Origin: an uncultured Saprospiraceae bacterium | GTDB taxonomy: Bacteria; Bacteroidota; Bacteroidia; Chitinophagales; Saprospiraceae | NCBI GenBank assembly: GCA_937961455.1 | Contig: CALGNN010000085.1 | Span: 1-64,000, forward strand | DNA: 64,000 bases | Reading direction: 5' to 3' | Shown here: positions 37,584 through 47,367 of the stretch, one piece after another | How positions within the stretch are numbered: position 1 is the first letter of the stretch | Layout: every line of letters starts with the position of its first letter | Program-made: the position numbers and the translations under genes | The notes under the pieces: generated by a model | Seen by the model: only the letters and a program-made list of their open reading frames with translations | Databases searched by the model: none | What the model was told of the DNA's origin: nothing

Positions 37584-38990
37584 ATGAGATATTTAAGCAT
37601 TACACTCACACTCCTTTTTCTAAGTTTAACTGCTAGCACAGCAGAAGCTCAAATATTTGAGCGAATTAAATTGAAAGTTGAAGAAAAAATTGAAGAGATC
37701 GCTAAAGATATTAAATCTGAAGTCGAAAAAATACTAGAGGTAGAAAATGAAGAAGAAGAGGAAGAAGAAGTTGAAGGAACGACAGAGTCAGATGAATCTA
37801 TTCTCGGAGATGATGAAGTAGAAGAAGCTGAGGAAGAAGCTAAAGAAGAAGAGGAAAAGACCTATGAGTATTTAGGTGATGATAAAGAAGAAGTTGCTGA
37901 TCGTCCTAAGGAAGAAAAAACCAGCTCAACAGACTCTGGCACTAACACAAGCACCAGTACTAGTACCAATACTAACACTGGTAGCAGTAGTAAGAAAGAA
38001 GAGGTAGAGGAAAAACTACCAGGCTATAATGAATATAAAAATTACCGATTTTTACCTGGTGAGATGACTTTGTTTTATGATGATCTAAGTCAGGATGGTG
38101 TAGCTGATGATCCGTCAAGATGGAATGTCAAGGAAGGCTCTGCAAGTGTGATGGGCGTGAATGGAAGAAAGGCGATCAATGCAGTTTCATACAACAAAAC
38201 AGTACTTAGCCCAGCTATTAGCTCGCCTATCTATTTGAGTAATGCATTCACCATAGAATTTGATGTATTTGTGGATGACATTAATCGGAATGGTTCAGCT
38301 GAGGTTAATTATGAAATATTTTTATCTAATGATCAAGTAAAGCCAATTGTGTTGAATATGCAATTTGGACAACTTTCTGGTAAAGTATTGACGGATGATT
38401 TTCCATTGGAATCTGTAGACCTTGGAAAAAGAAAAGCATGGCACCATGTGGCACTTTCTTTCTATAAAGGAAAGCTAAAGATGTATTATGATGAAAAAAG
38501 AATTGCAGACTTTGCTGATGTAGCTATTGATCCTGATCAGTTTAGAATATCTATGGAAGCCAATGCATTCCAAACTAAGAAATTACTCTATGCCATTAGT
38601 AATGTAAAAATTGCTTACGGAGGGATTGATATTCAGAAAAAATTTGAATCAAAAGGTGCCTATGCTACAAGTACAATACTTTTTGATGAAGGAACAGCAA
38701 ACATAAAGGCTTATTCAAGAGGAGTCATCACAAGAATGGTCTCATTGATGAAAAAGAATGAAGATTGGAATTTTATGATAGTCGGTCACACTGATAATAC
38801 TTCTTCTGCAGCTGATCAGTTAGCATTGTCCAAAGAGCGTGCAGAGACCATTAAGGAAGTATTGATTGCACAAGGAATCGACGCCTCTAGATTGAGTACT
38901 TCAGGAAAGGGGAATGCTGCTCGATTGTCTAGCAAAAATACAACCGAAGCGAAAGTCAATAATCGAAGAGTAGAATTTATTAAGCTTTAA
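37584..38990 (+). CDS. OmpA-family protein with acidic region and LamG-like domain
   Basis: A 468-residue envelope protein: signal peptide (1-22), a Lys/Glu helical region merging into a very acidic Glu-rich stretch (about 45-110), a Ser/Thr/Asn linker (about 112-135), a concanavalin/LamG-like beta-sandwich (about 150-345, with AFTIEFDVFVDD and RKAWHHVALSFYKGK) and a C-terminal OmpA domain (about 355-468). The OmpA part has the peptidoglycan-binding pattern: MIVGHTDNTSSAADQLALSKERAE and NRRVEF. The order lectin-like plus OmpA resembles Bacteroidota proteins that tie surface material to the wall. Its stop overlaps that of batD by a few bases on the opposite strand. Confidence 0.85.
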   Translation: MRYLSITLTLLFLSLTASTAEAQIFERIKLKVEEKIEEIAKDIKSEVEKILEVENEEEEEEEVEGTTESDESILGDDEVEEAEEEAKEEEEKTYEYLGDDKEEVADRPKEEKTSSTDSGTNTSTSTSTNTNTGSSSKKEEVEEKLPGYNEYKNYRFLPGEMTLFYDDLSQDGVADDPSRWNVKEGSASVMGVNGRKAINAVSYNKTVLSPAISSPIYLSNAFTIEFDVFVDDINRNGSAEVNYEIFLSNDQVKPIVLNMQFGQLSGKVLTDDFPLESVDLGKRKAWHHVALSFYKGKLKMYYDEKRIADFADVAIDPDQFRISMEANAFQTKKLLYAISNVKIAYGGIDIQKKFESKGAYATSTILFDEGTANIKAYSRGVITRMVSLMKKNEDWNFMIVGHTDNTSSAADQLALSKERAETIKEVLIAQGIDASRLSTSGKGNAARLSSKNTTEAKVNNRRVEFIKL

Positions 38991-39005
38991 TATTTATTAA
39001 GCTTT
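38975..39005. repeat. 14-bp direct repeat at the convergent gene ends
   Basis: ATTTATTAAGCTTT occurs at 38975-38988 and 38992-39005 with a 17-bp period; each copy contains the palindrome AAGCTT, so the pair can fold as a hairpin on both strands. It spans the last codons of the OmpA-family gene and of batD. Confidence 0.6.
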
Positions 39006-40687
39006 GAAATTATCAGCTCTGTTGTTTGATAAAGCTCTGAAAGATTAGATGGGTTAAATCCTCCGAATCTTGCTAATTCCATTTGTTTAAATAAAACTTC
39101 AAATTGGCTAAATTCTGATTCGCTCATATTTGGGTGCTTTTCAAAAGTCTTTTTAAAGTTTTCGACAGTCAAAGTAATACTTGGGTCATTTGAATGCTCA
39201 ACTAGAAGTTCATGAAAGATTTTTCTAATGGATTGATAAAAACTAGCTGCATCATTTTTATCTAGGTGATTTGATAATTCTTTTAATCTTTCGTCGGTAT
39301 TAACTTTGATTTCTTTTTCTCTCATAAAATTGAGACCACCAGTGCGCCATTTCCAAATATTGAGAAAGCCCAAACTAATTAAAGGGATCATACTAAGCGT
39401 CCAAAAAAGTGGTGTACCAAAAAACCTTTTATCGATTTTATGCCAACTGTTTGATGGTGGAGCGAGCTCTTTATTGAAGATCAACTCCTCTGATTCAGCT
39501 TCAGCTATTTCCGTAGCTTTATTGCTTGCCACCACATTACAAACAAATCTAGGCGATCGCAAAGTTTGGTATGAGCTAGAGTCCGTGTCAAAATAACTCA
39601 TCTCGTAGCTTATTGCTTGCCTTCCAATCTTTTTTGGAACAATGGTAAATTCATACTGCTTTTGAAAATTAAAAGTGGGATTCAAGTTCTCACTAGATTC
39701 GTTAACAAGCTCTGGACCGTATACCTCAAAATCTTCACCTAAATCCAACTCAGGCATCACAAATGTTTTTGGAATACCATCTCCTTCTACTAAAACGGTA
39801 AGCACGATAGATTCACCAAGCACTGCATAATTTTTATTGGTCTTTGCTTGTATGGTATAATGACCAACGCCATTAGAAAAATTATCAGGCTTAGGTTCTG
39901 GTAAGGGTAAGACAGTAATCTTATAAGGTTCAGAAGTCAGTTCCTTTCTCTTGTATCTAGAAAGAAAACTTCCAGGCAACAAGACTCCAGCTGTTGCCTT
40001 CATTGCCTCAATTTCAAAGACACCTGATTGAAAAGGGAAGAGGGCAATAGACCTTACCGTTTTAATATTATAAGCTACACCATCTATGATGTCTCGCTTA
40101 GTATCAAAGTAGGGATCGTTCAGATAGATGAGAAAAAATTCATCATAATCAGGAAAGCTGACCACATTTCTGTTTTGAATTCTTTCTGTGGCATACATAA
40201 GATAATTTACACCTAATTGTTGTCCAACGTACACCCGACTGGTATCCATTTCAGTCTTTATAAAAAAATCTTTTACCGGTTCAGAACCTGGCGCATCGAT
40301 ATTTCTTTTTTTCACAACTTCAATGGTGATAGGAGCTGATGCCATAGATTTACCATTGGCTTTTACACTGGCAGAACCAATGGTTATTTTACCAAGCTTT
40401 GTAGGTCGCACGGAATATTCAACGGACACATAACTGGAAGTTCTATTATTGATGGTCTGAGATCCTGATCCTTGAGCGGGTCCTCCTACTATTTTTAGAT
40501 TTTTAAAATCTGGCGCTTTGAATGCTGTTCCTGTAGCATTCGACAGAACAAATTTTATGTTAAAGGTTTCACCTTCTAATACTTTCTTAGAAGACACACT
40601 TGCTTTGAAGTCGATCCCTTCTTGTGCAGTTAGACATAGACTAAAGCTAAAAGATAGAAGAAGTATTAGATATGTTTTTAGGGTCAT
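38987..40687 (-). CDS. batD: BatD protein
   Basis: A 566-residue inner-membrane protein of the Bacteroides aerotolerance operon. It has a signal peptide (1-21), two to three Ig-like beta domains in the periplasm (about 25-400, with FKNLKIVGGPAQGSGSQT and FEVYGPELVNES), one membrane helix (about 425-445, TPLFWTLSMIPLISLGFLNIW) and a cytoplasmic helical tail (about 450-566). Mutants of the Bat operon in Bacteroides fragilis and other bacteria are sensitive to oxygen or show envelope defects; the molecular role is unsettled. Last gene of the operon; two bases separate it from the mini-BatD gene. Confidence 0.92.
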   Translation of the reverse strand: MTLKTYLILLLSFSFSLCLTAQEGIDFKASVSSKKVLEGETFNIKFVLSNATGTAFKAPDFKNLKIVGGPAQGSGSQTINNRTSSYVSVEYSVRPTKLGKITIGSASVKANGKSMASAPITIEVVKKRNIDAPGSEPVKDFFIKTEMDTSRVYVGQQLGVNYLMYATERIQNRNVVSFPDYDEFFLIYLNDPYFDTKRDIIDGVAYNIKTVRSIALFPFQSGVFEIEAMKATAGVLLPGSFLSRYKRKELTSEPYKITVLPLPEPKPDNFSNGVGHYTIQAKTNKNYAVLGESIVLTVLVEGDGIPKTFVMPELDLGEDFEVYGPELVNESSENLNPTFNFQKQYEFTIVPKKIGRQAISYEMSYFDTDSSSYQTLRSPRFVCNVVASNKATEIAEAESEELIFNKELAPPSNSWHKIDKRFFGTPLFWTLSMIPLISLGFLNIWKWRTGGLNFMREKEIKVNTDERLKELSNHLDKNDAASFYQSIRKIFHELLVEHSNDPSITLTVENFKKTFEKHPNMSESEFSQFEVLFKQMELARFGGFNPSNLSELYQTTELIISKLNKY

Positions 40688-40689
40688 TT

Positions 40690-41202
40690 CTAGATCTTGT
40701 AAGTCGGTCTACGCTTTTTTACTTTCTTCTTTGGAGGTGCTTTCATATCAAAAGGTTCTCGGTCGAAAGGATCTCCAAAATTGAAAAAGAATCCATTATC
40801 ATTTTGTGGCAAATTGGGTTCTTCAATGATTCCCTCTGGGTTGGGGAGCACTTGAATATATAAAGGCTCTGCATCAAGCACGTTTCCTTCATCGTCAGTG
40901 ATCGTCATCGGTTCAATGATAAGTAAGCCTTCTCTCAAGGGATTTAAATAGTAAGTATAGCTTTGACTGCTTGTCATGTCTCCATTTATTATAGAAGTTT
41001 GATAAGAACTCGAAGGAGCGCCTATCACTTCAAAATCTTGAAACTCAGGAAGGACTTCGCCCAATTTTGTATTTTCTGCAGTAATTTTAAGTATCAGTTT
41101 ATTTCCAAACAATATTGTATCACTGCTAATGGTATAGTGTAAAGATGCCTCTTGGGCATTCAAAAAAATGGGGAGTAAAAATAGGAGTAGTATTTTTCTC
41201 AT
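40690..41202 (-). CDS. mini-BatD: single Ig-like BatD-related secreted protein
   Basis: A 170-residue secreted protein with a signal peptide (RKILLLFLLPIFLNAQ) and one Ig-like domain (about 20-125) homologous to the first domain of BatD: FEVIGAPSSSYQTSIINGDM parallels FKNLKIVGGPAQGSGSQTIN. It lacks the membrane helix and cytoplasmic tail, and ends in a proline/lysine-rich tail (APPKKKVKKRRPTYK). It lies between batC and batD in the operon, 31 bp after batC. Probably a tandem, truncated duplicate of batD; a periplasmic adaptor role is inference. A frameshifted batD start is excluded because batD has its own signal peptide. Confidence 0.75.
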   Translation of the reverse strand: MRKILLLFLLPIFLNAQEASLHYTISSDTILFGNKLILKITAENTKLGEVLPEFQDFEVIGAPSSSYQTSIINGDMTSSQSYTYYLNPLREGLLIIEPMTITDDEGNVLDAEPLYIQVLPNPEGIIEEPNLPQNDNGFFFNFGDPFDREPFDMKAPPKKKVKKRRPTYKI

Positions 41203-41233: not shown

Positions 41234-41992
41234 TTACCAATCTTTGGCATTTTTTTTCTTATTCTTAGGAGTCTGTTGTAATTTTTTCTGTACTCTATTA
41301 TCTTCCTCTTCAGCAATTTGGAGCAATTGTAATGCCTCCTCTTTAGATAGGTTTTCTTTCTCTTCTAAATCTTTTGGTGTTACTTCAGCTTCGTCTAATT
41401 CTTCTTCTGTTTTACCGTCTTCAGGTTCGCCCTGTTGTTCGGAATCTTGTTCTTGTTGTTCCTGCTGTTGTTGTTGTTGATCCTGTTCTTGCTGTTCAGA
41501 GTCTTGTTCTTGCTCTTGCTCTTGTTCTTGTTGTTCCTGCTGTTGTTGCTGCTGCTGCTGCTGTTGTTGTTGTTGCATTTGAGCAATGGCAAGGTTTCTT
41601 CGAGTTTGCTCATCTTCAGAATTGATTCGAAGGGCTTGCTTGTATGAATTGATACTTTTATCATATTCTCCTTTTTGGAAATAGGTATTTCCTAGATTAT
41701 GATAGGCCATGGATTTTTCTTGCTGCGTTTGTAATTTTTCTATAGAAGAAATATAGTGTTTCTCTGCAGCATCAAATTCCTTTTGTTGATAAACGGTATT
41801 TCCTAAATTATAACTGTCCTTTGGCTTAGCATCTTTCTCTTGGGCTTTTCTATATTTTTCTTCGGCTGATTTGTATTCACCAAGAGACACATCTTTGTCA
41901 GCTTCCCTTCTCAACTTGTGAGCTTCTTGCGCAGTTAGTGAAACCGTCATTAGACTGGTAGAGATGAATAATATGAAGCTAATTAATTTCAT
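41234..41992 (-). CDS. batC: BatC, TPR protein with Gln/Glu-rich tract
   Basis: A 252-residue periplasmic or membrane-associated TPR protein: signal peptide (1-21), three TPR units (about 25-135, SYNLGNTVYQQKEFDAAEKHY-type and YHNLGNTYFQKGEYDKSINSYKQA), then a long tract of Gln and Glu (138-190) including 13 consecutive Gln at 140-152, and an acidic/basic tail with a helical segment KEEALQLLQIAEEE. The Bat C/E families carry TPRs that may bind the VWA proteins BatA/B. The start overlaps the end of batB by four bases. The Gln tract is coded by mixed CAA and CAG in about 140 bp. Confidence 0.9.
   Translation of the reverse strand: MKLISFILFISTSLMTVSLTAQEAHKLRREADKDVSLGEYKSAEEKYRKAQEKDAKPKDSYNLGNTVYQQKEFDAAEKHYISSIEKLQTQQEKSMAYHNLGNTYFQKGEYDKSINSYKQALRINSEDEQTRRNLAIAQMQQQQQQQQQQQQQEQQEQEQEQEQDSEQQEQDQQQQQQEQQEQDSEQQGEPEDGKTEEELDEAEVTPKDLEEKENLSKEEALQLLQIAEEEDNRVQKKLQQTPKNKKKNAKDW
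41423..41581. repeat. CAA/CAG/GAA/GAG low-complexity tract in batC
   Basis: On the minus strand a Gln/Glu codon tract encodes batC residues 138-190, with 13 straight Gln codons. Trinucleotide-type composition makes length variation by slippage plausible. Other strand frames in this tract read Leu/Val-rich nonsense. Confidence 0.85.
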
Positions 41993-42996
41993 ATGAGACT
42001 TTGTCTTTTATCTTCATTTAATAAATATTCTACAATCAAAAAAAGAAAAACCAGAAATGCAAATAATTGAAAGTAGGAATTGTAATCTTTAAATGAAGTC
42101 GTGCTTATTAATTTTTTATCCAATAAATCAATTTCCTTCTTAATTGAACTTGCAATGTCATCTATAGATTGTTTTTGAAAAAACTTTCCTCCTCCTGCAT
42201 TGGCAACGTCTTTTAAAAATGAAGGATCAAATTGGGTTTTAATAGGATTACCTTCGCTGTCTTTTTTATAAGCTTCAAATCCATTTTCAAATACAGGAAT
42301 GAATCCACCTTCTTCTGTTCCCACGCCAATGGTGTAAGAGATTAAGCCTTTGTTTAAGGCAGAAGCTGCAGCGTCTACACTCTTTTCTTCATGATCTTCT
42401 CCGTCAGAGATGATAATTAATGCTTTATGGTTGGCATCGCTTTCATCAAAGACTTGAAGCGCTCTTGAAAATACTCTATCTATCGCCGTACCCTGTGTGC
42501 TCGCTTGATTAGGGTTGGCATTTCTCAAGAATAGTTTTGCTGCTGCATAGTCAAGAGTTAGTGGCATTTGTATATAGGCTTCTCCAGCAAAAACGATTAA
42601 TCCAATGCGCTCGCCCTTTAGTGCTTGTATCACATTTGATGTAATCCGTTTAGCTTGCTCTAATCTGCTAGGGGCAACATCTTTGCAAAGCATGCTATTA
42701 CTAATGTCGAGGGCTATGATCACATCAGAACTTTTGGATTCTACTTCCTCATTCGTCAATCCCCATTGAGGGTTGCTCAATGCAATCACACCTGCAAGTA
42801 AGCTGCCTATAAGTAAAATAGCTTTTGCATTTCGAACCTTACTTGAAATATGTGCCGTTAATTTTTCAATAGATTGATCTACACCTAATTTTTGAAGATC
42901 TTTTAAGCGTTTTCGTAAATATAAATAATAGATTCCTGCCATGATCGGAATCAACCATAGCCCCATTAAATATGATATGTTTTCTATTTGAAACAT
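41989..42996 (-). CDS. batB: BatB, von Willebrand A domain membrane protein
   Basis: A 335-residue inner-membrane protein with N-terminal helices (about 9-26 and 60-75), a VWA domain (about 90-290) and a C-terminal helix (about 310-328). The MIDAS metal site is intact: D97, S99 and S101 (ALDISNSM), and the later FAGEAY and ISDGEDHE. This domain faces the periplasm and probably binds a partner through Mg2+. One-base overlap with batA upstream and four-base overlap with batC downstream. Confidence 0.93.
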   Translation of the reverse strand: MFQIENISYLMGLWLIPIMAGIYYLYLRKRLKDLQKLGVDQSIEKLTAHISSKVRNAKAILLIGSLLAGVIALSNPQWGLTNEEVESKSSDVIIALDISNSMLCKDVAPSRLEQAKRITSNVIQALKGERIGLIVFAGEAYIQMPLTLDYAAAKLFLRNANPNQASTQGTAIDRVFSRALQVFDESDANHKALIIISDGEDHEEKSVDAAASALNKGLISYTIGVGTEEGGFIPVFENGFEAYKKDSEGNPIKTQFDPSFLKDVANAGGGKFFQKQSIDDIASSIKKEIDLLDKKLISTTSFKDYNSYFQLFAFLVFLFLIVEYLLNEDKRQSLI

Positions 42997-43997
42997 TAGG
43001 GCAATACTCTTACTATTAAATAACGAAGCATAAATTCAATTAATATCAAGGCCAAAGCAAAGATTAAAAATGGTCGGTACTCTTCTGATTTACGCTTGAT
43101 GATTTCTACTTCTATTTTTGTTTTTTCTAATGAATTGATCTCGTCATAAATTTGTGCTAAACTCTCAGGAGATGTCGCTCTGTAATATTTACCTCCAGTC
43201 TCTGTAGCGATACGTGTCAATAGTGCTTCATCTATTTTCACATTTACTACTCTGAAGGTATATTTTCCATTGGCTCTTCCATCAGGGGCTAATGCTTCAC
43301 CTCTTGTCCCGACACCGATGGTATAAACTCTCACACCTAATTCTTTAGCAATTTCAGATGCAGTCAATGGATTGATGGTCCCAGAATTATTATCCCCATC
43401 AGTCAATAGGATAACTACCTTGGTATTGGTCTCAGAATCTTTTAGTCTATTGATGGCTGACGCCATACCCATGCCGATTGCTGTTCCGTCTTCTAAAAAC
43501 CCGCACTGTAAAGCTGCAAGATATTCTTTGACTACTCTATGGTCCGTCGTCAATGGACATTGGGTAAAGCTCTCTCCCGCAAATACCGTCAAGCCAATTC
43601 TATCATGCTCTCTTTTATCAACAAAATCTGCAGCAACTTTTTTACTTACTTCTAATCGATCAGGATCAAAATCTTTGGCTAGCATACTACTGGACAAATC
43701 CATTACTAAGAATATATCGATACCTTCTGCTTCGATGACCTCTTCTTGTAAAGCTGTAATTGGACGCGCTAAGACTATGATTAATGCAAGCAGACTTAAC
43801 AAGCGAGCGATCTTGATCATTTTTTCTAAAAGGTGATAAAATCCGCCTTGATCTTGAATGCTTTCTAAAGCAGGAAAAGTAATATGAATCGCTTCTTTTG
43901 GATCTTTTCTTTTTTGCCAGAAGTAGTACAAGGGAATAAGTCCAAGCAAAAGCAAGAACCATGGATGGTCTAGATATATGTTGCCCCAAATTCTCAT
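42996..43997 (-). CDS. batA: BatA, von Willebrand A domain membrane protein
   Basis: A 333-residue paralogue of BatB: one or two N-terminal helices (about 12-26, 63-78), VWA domain (about 90-295) with an intact MIDAS (D100, S102, S104 in VMDLSSSM; TVFAGESFTQ; LLTDGDNNSG), and a C-terminal helix (about 310-327). It begins within the last codons of the upstream RDD-fusion gene (ATGA overlap). Together with BatB it forms the core of the Bat complex. Confidence 0.94.
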   Translation of the reverse strand: MRIWGNIYLDHPWFLLLLGLIPLYYFWQKRKDPKEAIHITFPALESIQDQGGFYHLLEKMIKIARLLSLLALIIVLARPITALQEEVIEAEGIDIFLVMDLSSSMLAKDFDPDRLEVSKKVAADFVDKREHDRIGLTVFAGESFTQCPLTTDHRVVKEYLAALQCGFLEDGTAIGMGMASAINRLKDSETNTKVVILLTDGDNNSGTINPLTASEIAKELGVRVYTIGVGTRGEALAPDGRANGKYTFRVVNVKIDEALLTRIATETGGKYYRATSPESLAQIYDEINSLEKTKIEVEIIKRKSEEYRPFLIFALALILIEFMLRYLIVRVLP

Positions 43998-45496
43998 ATC
44001 TCTAGATTATTATCTTCAGTATTAATGACGGTCGTCCCAGCTGCTAAATCATGGAGTGTTTGAACGTCTTCCGTGAAAAAAGCCATAATGTACCCTATAC
44101 CCAATATCCAAGAAAATGGTGTCACGATCCATCGAATCAAATACTTGACGAAAGATTTATTTTGTTTCTTGAAATAGAATTTTTGTCTAAATATCCATTT
44201 CCCAAAACTGGCATCAAAAAACCAATGAGCAACTGGGAAATAAAGGAAGCTCAAGATTAAGAAAATGACACCCAGGATGATTTGGGTTGAAGTAATGTAC
44301 AATTCAATTAGAATTGTCATAAAGTCCATATTGACCATAAATATGGATGCGTATATAAAGAAGAAAACGATGCATAATAAAGTAAAACAAATCCTATCAA
44401 CGAATAAAGATAAAAGACGTTCAAATGGAGAAGCCAATTGTGATTTGTAATCCGCATGAACAATTTTATCTGGTAATTGATAGTCAAATTCTAATCCTTG
44501 GTAAAGGAGTTTTTTATATGCGTAATCATCTCCTTTTTCTAAGCTTACAAATTTTTCTTTTAAATCTTCTGCTCCAATAAAGCTTCTGATTTCTGTCAGA
44601 AATTGTTTGTGCATTTCTTCACCAGGAATGGCTTTTGCAAATTTTACCAGATCTGAAATATTCAACAAACGGTATAAAAGATTTTGTTGATTGGTATCAT
44701 CTTTTAAACTTTTAAAAGATTGCATTATTTCAGATGAAGACAATTCAAGTGCTGGAAATTTAAAATTTCTAGATAAGAACTCTCTTAAAATGTAAGCAAA
44801 AGAAGACTGGTGTTGTTTCGATTGATCTTTGGTCCATAATGCTTCAGCTTCAAGCACTTCGATCTTTTTTAAGGCAATTTCTGCAGCAGTATAAGATTCA
44901 TATTCTATGAGTTGTGTTGAAATTTGCTTCTTATTATGCCTAGAGTTTAAAAATAGAAGTAACCCAAAGAAGGCTAGAATAGCGAGTACAATTAAAATTG
45001 GGATTATGTAGTCTAATATATTAATAGGCTCTCTGATGATCGATTTAATAGGAGCTAAATTTTCTGGGTCAGCTTCGAGTCCACCAGTTAGTGGCGATTG
45101 CACTTTGAAAGAAACGGTATTGCTTAATATACTCCGGCGGTCTCTACTCTGTACTTCTAAAGGCGGTAAAAAATAGATGCCTTCCTTCCACATGATAAAT
45201 TCAATATTCTTCTCTAAGGAGCCGTTTGCATTCTTCAGCCATTCTGATTCTGAAAGAAATTCAATGCTGGGATTTTCTTTGTCAAATGTTCCTGTAAATT
45301 CTTGAGGCAGGATGGTATCCCAGCGACTATAATCCAGTTTTTTATTAATGATGAGTTCTGGTGCAATTAATTTTAAGTTGCGCTTTTCTCCAATTTGAAA
45401 GATGGTGGTATCGGGCGTGATAATAAAATTAGATTGCCCTTGGAGCCCCGTTAGGCATCCGAAAAAAAAGATGATATGAATGAGTAATCGCTGCAC
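43994..45496 (-). CDS. DUF4381-like/BatD-like protein fused to a C-terminal RDD membrane domain
   Basis: A 500-residue protein. It has a signal peptide (1-20), an Ig-like periplasmic domain (about 25-140, QIGEKRNLKLIAPELIINKK), a membrane helix (about 161-184), a helical cytoplasmic part like DUF4381 (about 190-305, with ILREFLSRNFKFPALELSSSEI) and then an RDD-type domain (about 345-495): LLSLFVDRICF, several helices, WIVTPFSWILGIG and TLHDLAAGTTVI, the family's late HD..AGT motif. DUF4381-type proteins are usual between DUF58 and batA; an attached RDD domain is unusual to my knowledge. It directly abuts the DUF58 gene and overlaps batA by four bases. Confidence 0.75.
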   Translation of the reverse strand: MQRLLIHIIFFFGCLTGLQGQSNFIITPDTTIFQIGEKRNLKLIAPELIINKKLDYSRWDTILPQEFTGTFDKENPSIEFLSESEWLKNANGSLEKNIEFIMWKEGIYFLPPLEVQSRDRRSILSNTVSFKVQSPLTGGLEADPENLAPIKSIIREPINILDYIIPILIVLAILAFFGLLLFLNSRHNKKQISTQLIEYESYTAAEIALKKIEVLEAEALWTKDQSKQHQSSFAYILREFLSRNFKFPALELSSSEIMQSFKSLKDDTNQQNLLYRLLNISDLVKFAKAIPGEEMHKQFLTEIRSFIGAEDLKEKFVSLEKGDDYAYKKLLYQGLEFDYQLPDKIVHADYKSQLASPFERLLSLFVDRICFTLLCIVFFFIYASIFMVNMDFMTILIELYITSTQIILGVIFLILSFLYFPVAHWFFDASFGKWIFRQKFYFKKQNKSFVKYLIRWIVTPFSWILGIGYIMAFFTEDVQTLHDLAAGTTVINTEDNNLEI

Positions 45497-46366
45497 CTAT
45501 TTTTTCCTTCTTTTAAAAAACTGTAACAAACTGTGAATGTAGGATTCGTCAGTACGAATGCTTAAAACATCTCCGCCACTTCTGTAAAAGTTTGATTTAA
45601 AGTTTTCAGAATGTTGCTCAAACCAATTTGCATATTTTTCTTGAATGGAAGCGTCAGAACTATTAAAGCTTATAATTTTTCCAGTTTCTGCATCTTTTAA
45701 GCGAACCCTGCCAATTGCTGGAAGCTTTTGCTCCTTTGGATCATATAATTGACATCCCACAATGTCATGACGATTGCAAGCGACACTGAGTGCTTGCTTA
45801 TAATTATCCGTCATGAAATCACTCAGGATGAAACAAATGCATCTTTTGGTTTGGACATTATTAAAGTACTCCAAAGCTTCTGATAGATTGGTTCCTTTTC
45901 CTGTTGATTTAAAGGTTAGTAATTCTCTAATGATTAGGAGGATATGTGACTTTCCTTTTTTTGGTGGAATGTATTTTTCGACCGTATCTGAAAATAGTAT
46001 CACTCCAACCTTGTCATTATTTTGAATGGCAGAAAAAGCAATTACAGCAGCAATTTCAGTGAGCATTTCATTTTTAAACTGTTCTTCTGTCCCAAAAAAA
46101 GAAGATGCTGAAAGATCAATAATGAGCATTACGGTCAACTCTCTTTCTTCTTCAAATATTTTGACATGGGGATCAGAAGTTCGTGCAGTAACATTCCAAT
46201 CGATATTTCTTACATCATCACCATATTGGTATTCACGAACCTCACTAAAGGACATGCCCCTTCCTTTGAATGCACTGTGATATTCTCCAGAAAAGATGTG
46301 CTTACTTAAACCCTTTGTCTTTAATTCTATTTTCCGGACCTTCCTTAATAATTCATTGCTTTCCAT
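45497..46366 (-). CDS. DUF58 domain protein of the Bat operon
   Basis: A 289-residue cytoplasmic protein of the DUF58 family, structurally VWA-like. The family block GRGMSFSEVREYQYGDDVRNIDWNVTAR (about 36-63; HIFSGEYHSAFKG just before) is intact, as is the pseudo-MIDAS LIIDLSASS. DUF58 proteins pair with MoxR ATPases in many bacteria. The start overlaps the moxR stop by one base (TAATG) and the stop is followed by the next ATG without a gap. Confidence 0.92.
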   Translation of the reverse strand: MESNELLRKVRKIELKTKGLSKHIFSGEYHSAFKGRGMSFSEVREYQYGDDVRNIDWNVTARTSDPHVKIFEEERELTVMLIIDLSASSFFGTEEQFKNEMLTEIAAVIAFSAIQNNDKVGVILFSDTVEKYIPPKKGKSHILLIIRELLTFKSTGKGTNLSEALEYFNNVQTKRCICFILSDFMTDNYKQALSVACNRHDIVGCQLYDPKEQKLPAIGRVRLKDAETGKIISFNSSDASIQEKYANWFEQHSENFKSNFYRSGGDVLSIRTDESYIHSLLQFFKRRKK

Positions 46367-47367
46367 TAAGGTACAGCTACAGTGTTTAGAATTTGATCTA
46401 TGATATCTTCTTGACTGATATCCTCAGCCTCTGCTTCATAGGTGAGTCCTATTCTATGTCTCATGACATCTTTGCAAACATTCCTAACGTCATCAGGTAT
46501 TACATAACCTCTTCTTCTTAAAAACGCCAATGCCTTTGCAGCTGATGCTAAATAAATGCTGGTCCTGGGTGAGCCGCCATAGTTTAATAAATTATTCAAA
46601 TTGCTTAAGCCATACTCCTCAGGATTTCTTGTTGCAAAAACGATATCAAGGATGTATTGTTCTATCTTCTCATCCATATAAATCTTCTTTACAACCTCTC
46701 TCGCTTTCAAAATTTGAGCGGGTTTAACGACTGGATTCACTTTATTAGCAACGGTCCCATTGAGATTCCTTCTAACAATTTCTCTTTCCTCTTCTTTAGT
46801 TGGATAGCCAATCTTAACCTTTAGCATAAATCGATCTACTTGCGCTTCAGGTAAAGGATAAGTTCCTTCTTGTTCAATGGGATTTTGAGTAGCTAGTACC
46901 AAAAAGGGTTCTTCCAGTTTAAAACTTTCTTTTCCAATTGTCACTTGGCGTTCTTGCATCGCCTCCAAGAGCGCAGACTGAACTTTTGCAGGAGCACGAT
47001 TGATCTCATCCGCTAATACAAAGTTTGAAAAAACAGGGCCCTTTCTTACCGTAAACTCATTGGTGCCAGGATTATAAATCATCGTACCAATAATATCTGC
47101 AGGTAAAAGGTCAGGGGTAAATTGAATTCTATTGAATTGGGCATCAATGGCTGATGATAAAGTTTTTATAGCCAAAGTTTTTGCTAAGCCTGGTAAACCT
47201 TCTAACAAAACATGTCCTCTCGCGAGCAGACCTAAAAGCAATCTTTCGACCATGGTATCTTGTCCCACAATGATCTCTGAAGTTGCAGAACGGATCGTAT
47301 CTACAAATGCACTTTCTGCATAAATTTCTTCGTTTAAAGCTTGAATATCTGGTGCTTCGTTAATCAT
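46366..47367 (-). CDS. MoxR-family AAA+ ATPase
   Basis: A 333-residue AAA+ ATPase. Walker A is GLPGLAKT (57-64), Walker B VLADEINR (117-124), sensor 1 LATQNP (158-163), with PEAQVDRF for the arginine finger; the C-terminal lid has GGSPRTS, typical of MoxR. MoxR ATPases act as chaperone-like remodelers of VWA proteins, here BatA/BatB/DUF58. It is the first gene of the operon and is transcribed divergently from a secreted protein gene; 89 bp separate the starts. Confidence 0.95.
   Translation of the reverse strand: MINEAPDIQALNEEIYAESAFVDTIRSATSEIIVGQDTMVERLLLGLLARGHVLLEGLPGLAKTLAIKTLSSAIDAQFNRIQFTPDLLPADIIGTMIYNPGTNEFTVRKGPVFSNFVLADEINRAPAKVQSALLEAMQERQVTIGKESFKLEEPFLVLATQNPIEQEGTYPLPEAQVDRFMLKVKIGYPTKEEEREIVRRNLNGTVANKVNPVVKPAQILKAREVVKKIYMDEKIEQYILDIVFATRNPEEYGLSNLNNLLNYGGSPRTSIYLASAAKALAFLRRRGYVIPDDVRNVCKDVMRHRIGLTYEAEAEDISQEDIIDQILNTVAVP

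Follow-up and report, generated by a model that had tools for sequence, protein, structure and literature searches.

The window analysed here, a stretch of 64,000 nucleotides of contig CALGNN010000085.1 from an uncultured Saprospiraceae bacterium, contains a Bat operon, the bacterial envelope stress (aerotolerance) operon, on its reverse strand. MoxR, DUF58, BatA, BatB, BatC and BatD are encoded together in this one operon, which is arranged in the order MoxR-DUF58-[DUF4381-like+RDD]-BatA-BatB-BatC-short BatD-BatD (Pfam, NCBIfam). The full MoxR-DUF58-Bat gene set thus surrounds a fusion gene, as had been proposed in a preliminary description of this DNA.

46366..47367 (-), MoxR AAA+ ATPase (PF07726, E 2.9e-66)
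45497..46366 (-), DUF58 protein, VWA-like (PF01882, E 3.2e-78)
43994..45496 (-), fusion gene, 500 aa: signal peptide, BatD-like Ig domain, TM helix, DUF4381/BatD-type helical domain (predicted cytoplasmic) and RDD domain
42996..43997 (-), BatA, VWA protein with the BatA N-terminal TM region (Pfam)
41989..42996 (-), BatB, VWA protein (Pfam, NCBIfam)
41234..41992 (-), BatC, TPR protein with a glutamine-rich tail (Pfam, NCBIfam)
40690..41202 (-), short BatD-like protein, 170 aa, with one DUF11-like domain (PF13584, E 1.6e-14)
38987..40687 (-), BatD (PF13584, E 1.1e-31)

The short BatD-like gene between those for BatC and BatD is kept in most of the Saprospiraceae Bat operons examined, and the tail that follows the TPR repeats of BatC is long and Q/E-rich, with runs of glutamine. 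The role of the Bat proteins in oxygen or stress tolerance is disputed, as no phenotype was observed in Leptospira biflexa (PMC3557215).

The fusion gene forms an uninterrupted reading frame from a GTG start at 45496, which abuts the stop of the DUF58 gene, to a stop at 43994, and its 3' end shares 4 nt with the start of the BatA gene. The encoded protein comprises the following parts:

45434..45496 (-), signal peptide-like N-terminus, residues 1-21 (sequence; AlphaFold2 helix 2-19)
45098..45427 (-), Ig-like beta-sandwich, residues 24-133 (strands with pLDDT about 90 in the AlphaFold2 model; Ig-like folds predominate among the best Foldseek matches)
44927..45016 (-), single TM helix, residues 161-190 (AlphaFold2 model; sequence)
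44576..44887 (-), helical domain, predicted cytoplasmic, with a DLVKFAKA motif, residues 204-307 (alignment, profile comparison, model)
44435..44575 (-), linker, residues 308-354 (low confidence in the AlphaFold2 model)
44036..44434 (-), RDD domain, residues 355-487, with signature residues R360/D367/D483 (Pfam, alignment, model)

An AlphaFold2 model based on 46 sequences (mean pLDDT 81, pTM 0.45) reproduces this order as a signal helix, a beta sandwich, a TM helix, a helical bundle, a loose linker and the RDD helices, the last consisting of two long helices (357-388 and 394-427) and a shorter one (449-464). The start of the RDD domain and the helical domain are predicted to lie on one side of the membrane, and we infer a topology in which the Ig-like domain would be periplasmic and the helical domain cytoplasmic, with the RDD domain entering the membrane from the inside. 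No credible relative was found in a PDB sequence search with the fusion protein, and with the Foldseek matches being mostly to Ig-like folds there is no structural clue for the RDD domain. As a lone query the fusion protein gave no match in the named genomes, and an alignment was required as the query.

The two parts of the fusion protein

The preliminary description had placed an RDD domain within residues 345-495. A significant match to the Pfam RDD profile (PF06271) is located there, at residues 355-487 (E 7.7e-12, model positions 2-137 of 137), and its score of 46.1 bits lies above the curated cut-off of 24.1. As profile support is found in the very region on which the claim had been made to depend, the observation stands and the fusion is confirmed to be real. 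That a frameshift, an assembly join or chance similarity should have produced it is scarcely credible; the gene lies on a single contig of a draft genome, but no positive sign of an artefact was found, and the full-length RDD match, the open frame and the same architecture in at least 17 genomes all argue against it. A whole-genome search identified this as the sole RDD domain of the 4.6-Mb assembly.

The signature of the family is present, with R360 at the start and D367 in the middle of the first TM helix and H482-D483 near the C-terminus (alignment, with helix 357-388 in the model). R360, D367, D483, G432-K433 and R455 are invariant across 14 aligned, divergent fused homologues, and the R-x6-D motif occurs in all 18 fused RDD copies. 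Purifying selection on the RDD domain is shown in one close pair, G102-G192 (dN/dS about 0.1, from dN 0.23 and a dS of 2.2 that is near saturation). The motif conservation and this ratio suggest that the RDD domain is under selection in the genomes that retain it.

The N-terminal part has no match of its own in Pfam or NCBIfam, the DUF4381 (PF14316) cut-off is not reached by the window protein, and only four of 14 homologues show a match to this model, each below threshold. When 15 aligned unfused orthologues from the Saprospiraceae were compared by hhalign with four proteins of other Bacteroidota that pass the DUF4381 cut-off, however, 290 columns were aligned with a probability of 100 (E 1.1e-42). 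Of these four reference proteins, three have the gene order DUF58-DUF4381-BatA, and one is encoded behind DUF58. On this profile homology, and on the equal operon position to true DUF4381 proteins, the 305 residues upstream of the fusion point are confirmed, at the level of sequence comparison, as a DUF4381-type Bat subunit; the label 'DUF4381-like' was therefore right as a statement of homology, although the protein's own Pfam score is below the cut-off. The DUF4381 subunits of MoxR-DUF58-Bat operons share with the fusion protein the signal peptide, Ig domain, TM helix and helical domain, as well as the D-L-V-K-F-A motif and the site between DUF58 and BatA, and differ from it in lacking the extra C-terminal RDD domain and in reaching the Pfam score. 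In addition, hhalign detects homology between the N-terminal part and the C-terminal third of BatD (probability 97, E 6.5e-11), a protein with more Ig repeats and no RDD domain.

Distribution and history of the fusion

Profile matches were obtained in 379 of the 398 sampled Saprospiraceae genomes, some of them through the RDD domain alone, and both parts occur in one frame in at least 17 of the 398, which belong to 14 genera. The recurrence in related genomes that the preliminary description had proposed to look for is thereby borne out. The fused genomes are as follows:

G000 (the genome of the window), G001, G016, G019 (at a contig edge), G036, G097, G102, G174, G192
G209, G245, G249, G259, G284, G290, G333, G381

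The fusion gene lies directly before that of BatA in every one of these genomes, and the remaining Bat genes are also visible in most of them, with shorter views for G245, G284 and G381; the RDD domain of G245 aligns only to model position 124 of 137. No fusion occurred among the matches listed for 199 genomes sampled from the order, about 160 of them outside the Saprospiraceae, or for 198 sampled from the class, about 190 of them outside the order. As most relatives lack it, the RDD tail is dispensable and optional rather than a core part of the system.

Several other arrangements of the subunit were observed. The fusion gene of G174 (L113:6202-8226 (-)) codes for 675 aa with two tandem RDD domains that are 45% identical to each other. 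In the class sample, the subunit of family f25 carries a tail comprising one TM segment and some 180 aa, which has no Pfam or RDD match (E 0.01):

L258:6944-8578 (+), f25 alternative-tail gene
L259:6752-8386 (-), f25 alternative-tail gene
L260:6984-8609 (+), f25 alternative-tail gene

Another C-terminal membrane extension of a DUF4381-like subunit, with no Pfam match, is encoded in family f4 of the order (L040:7351-8784 (+)). In some Saprospiraceae the subunit is joined straight to BatA (L037:7489-9453 (+), L038:6220-8181 (-) and L129:6070-8151 (+)), and in another (L036:7666-9018) the DUF4381-like part stands behind a shortened DUF58.

Stand-alone RDD genes were sought in Bat operons that lack the fusion, as had also been suggested, and a separate RDD frame beside the unfused Bat gene was found in none of 119 loci, some of which have short flanks and some of which come from genomes counted twice. 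The stand-alone RDD gene instead adjoins SpoIIM, DUF4129, DUF4350, MoxR and DUF58 in a second type of operon, and most Saprospiraceae have an RDD gene next to SpoIIM in such a second MoxR-DUF58 operon. SpoIIM is encoded in 282 of the 398 Saprospiraceae genomes, among them all 16 of the other fused genomes. The stand-alone RDD of these operons resembles the fused one in its profile, its signature and its partnership with MoxR and DUF58, but is encoded by a separate gene of about 250 aa in another operon and forms its own clade (100/96 support). In Mycobacterium, the RDD, SpoIIM, DUF58, MoxR and DUF4350 genes change expression as a set (PMC8191103), and a function as systems for secretion or for the remodelling of membranes has been predicted for DUF4350-vWA-MoxR operons (PMC5898192). 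RDD thus recurs as a partner in MoxR-DUF58 membrane operons, in both the fused Bat type and the SpoIIM type.

Neither SpoIIM nor a second RDD domain was found in a whole-genome search of the genome of the window, which is hence without the second RDD-SpoIIM-MoxR-DUF58 operon. A split version of this operon was considered and rejected, the other strong MoxR and the other DUF58 being located on separate contigs, near DNA ligase and polyphosphate kinase genes. Substitution of the fused RDD for the missing SpoIIM-RDD operon would be possible for this genome only, as the other 16 have SpoIIM.

Phylogenies were constructed from the N-terminal part (83 rows) and from the RDD domain (67 rows, drawn only from the higher-scoring RDD domains of the family). 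Fused and unfused genes are mixed in the former as in random labelling (14 changes against a shuffled mean of 14.7), close unfused sisters stand beside fused genes, at least 11 changes between the two states are forced by supported branches, and a single clade of fused genes is rejected. On the RDD tree, in contrast, the fused RDD domains lie close to one another (3 changes, where shuffled labels need 16) and apart from the stand-alone ones, and a single clade of fused RDD domains is not rejected by a topology test (p-AU 0.25), although branches are long. Capture of the fused RDD from the local SpoIIM-linked RDD was rejected, as the latter forms a separate, well-supported clade. This pattern of a mixed N-part tree and grouped RDD domains suggests either an old fusion that was lost many times or the exchange of one RDD lineage, and one old fusion in the Saprospiraceae followed by many losses of the RDD domain appears most likely. 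Stubs resembling the fused linker, which occur in unfused sisters of the genera g101, g121 and g129, fit such losses.

RDD cassettes may instead have been captured or exchanged at the C-terminus several times independently, a history with which any function would be compatible and which we consider to fall short of probable. It would accommodate the intermingling of fused and unfused genes and the forced changes, the two RDD copies of G174, and the difference between G333 and its close unfused sisters, a block of some 0.5 kb that follows the helical domain and precedes BatA. The RDD domains of G249 and G290 (genus g101) are only 29% identical, against 62% for their helical domains, which hints at domain exchange and not simple descent; across the fused proteins the median identity is 30% for the RDD domain and 42% for the helical domain. 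The grouping of the fused RDD domains outside the sampled stand-alone clades and the linker stubs argue in the other direction, as does the finding that in the closest pairs RDD partners follow N-part partners.

Possible roles of the RDD tail

The preliminary description had called the RDD part channel-like. This is weakly supported, since a single Na+/H+ antiporter is the sole transport evidence found for the RDD family. The RDD protein concerned, from Halobacillus, restores Na+/H+ antiport and needs R124, R129, D154 and D158, and not R35 or D42 (PMC5996927). When positions are mapped by spacing, without the reference sequence, D154 corresponds to D483 beside the conserved His, but the essential D158 corresponds to G487, this position being acidic in only two of 14 fused RDD domains, and one arginine, R455, lies in the region of R124/R129. 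The fused RDD therefore lacks the Halobacillus-type residue set. SppI of Bacillus subtilis has all six residues yet shows neither a salt nor a pH phenotype (PMC7568657). It is accordingly improbable that the RDD domain transports ions and confers a transport function on the Bat complex, and it is best read as a regulatory or ligand-sensing membrane module. Overall, the RDD domain, the DUF4381-like N-terminus, the Bat operon and the recurrence of the preliminary description stand, while its channel-like character is not supported.

The fusion protein may belong to the MoxR-DUF58-Bat machine as its DUF4381-type inner-membrane subunit, extended at the C-terminus by an RDD membrane module. Its helical domain would reside in the cytoplasm, the site of MoxR and DUF58 action, and the chain would then re-enter the membrane as the RDD domain, adding a membrane-embedded ligand-binding or regulatory site that faces the cytoplasm, for instance for sensing a lipid or lipid carrier, and that may tune or localise the Bat complex. 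SppI is a protease inhibitor or regulator in a membrane complex with SppA (PMC7568657), and a 2025 analysis ascribes to RDD, which is often fused to lipid-acting VanZ domains, a conserved binding site within the membrane that faces the cytoplasm (PMC12419801). Both represent RDD as a regulatory or binding membrane module as proposed here, but with other partners than those of the fusion and, in the passages considered, outside any Bat or MoxR context. With the antiport residue absent, the regulator SppI and the VanZ-RDD binding site favour a regulatory or ligand-binding RDD add-on to a standard Bat subunit, which, together with the old-fusion history, is our tentative preference, held with less than even confidence; the ligand sensing, the regulation and the effect on MoxR are putative. 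The faster divergence of the RDD than of the helical domain, which is compatible with a loose structural role, and the discordance of the G249 and G290 RDD domains count against this proposal.

The same fast divergence would be expected if the RDD domain merely held the Bat subunit, as an additional membrane anchor or an element of oligomerisation, and received no ligand or signal, and the unrelated tails at the same end in f25 (L258, L260) and f4 (L040), as well as the direct fusions to BatA in some Saprospiraceae (L037, L038, L129), are in line with it. A plain anchor would, however, need no conserved charges in its membrane part, and the six residues R360, D367, D483, G432, K433 and R455 are invariant in the 14 divergent fused RDD domains, rendering this explanation rather unlikely. 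The regulatory add-on may be extended to a wider proposal, doubtful as a joint claim, in which the C-terminus of the subunit would be a plug-in site to which the Bacteroidota attach various membrane modules, an RDD domain in the Saprospiraceae and a TM segment with an extracytoplasmic domain in another family. The RDD domain would then be one input head through which the MoxR-VWA machinery receives a signal from a lipid or a lipid-linked precursor, and close relatives would gain, lose or swap it.

No description of a Bat subunit-RDD fusion was found in the literature searched, which was mostly without subscription journals. The fusion is a new arrangement of known domains rather than a new system, and is modestly surprising. 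Both the Bat/MoxR machine and the RDD domain are without an agreed function, and the fusion physically links the two and ties RDD, within a single family, to MoxR-DUF58 operons of two separate types. With the close unfused sisters as natural controls, the Saprospiraceae fusion provides a testable case that RDD serves MoxR-VWA membrane complexes as a subunit for regulation or binding.
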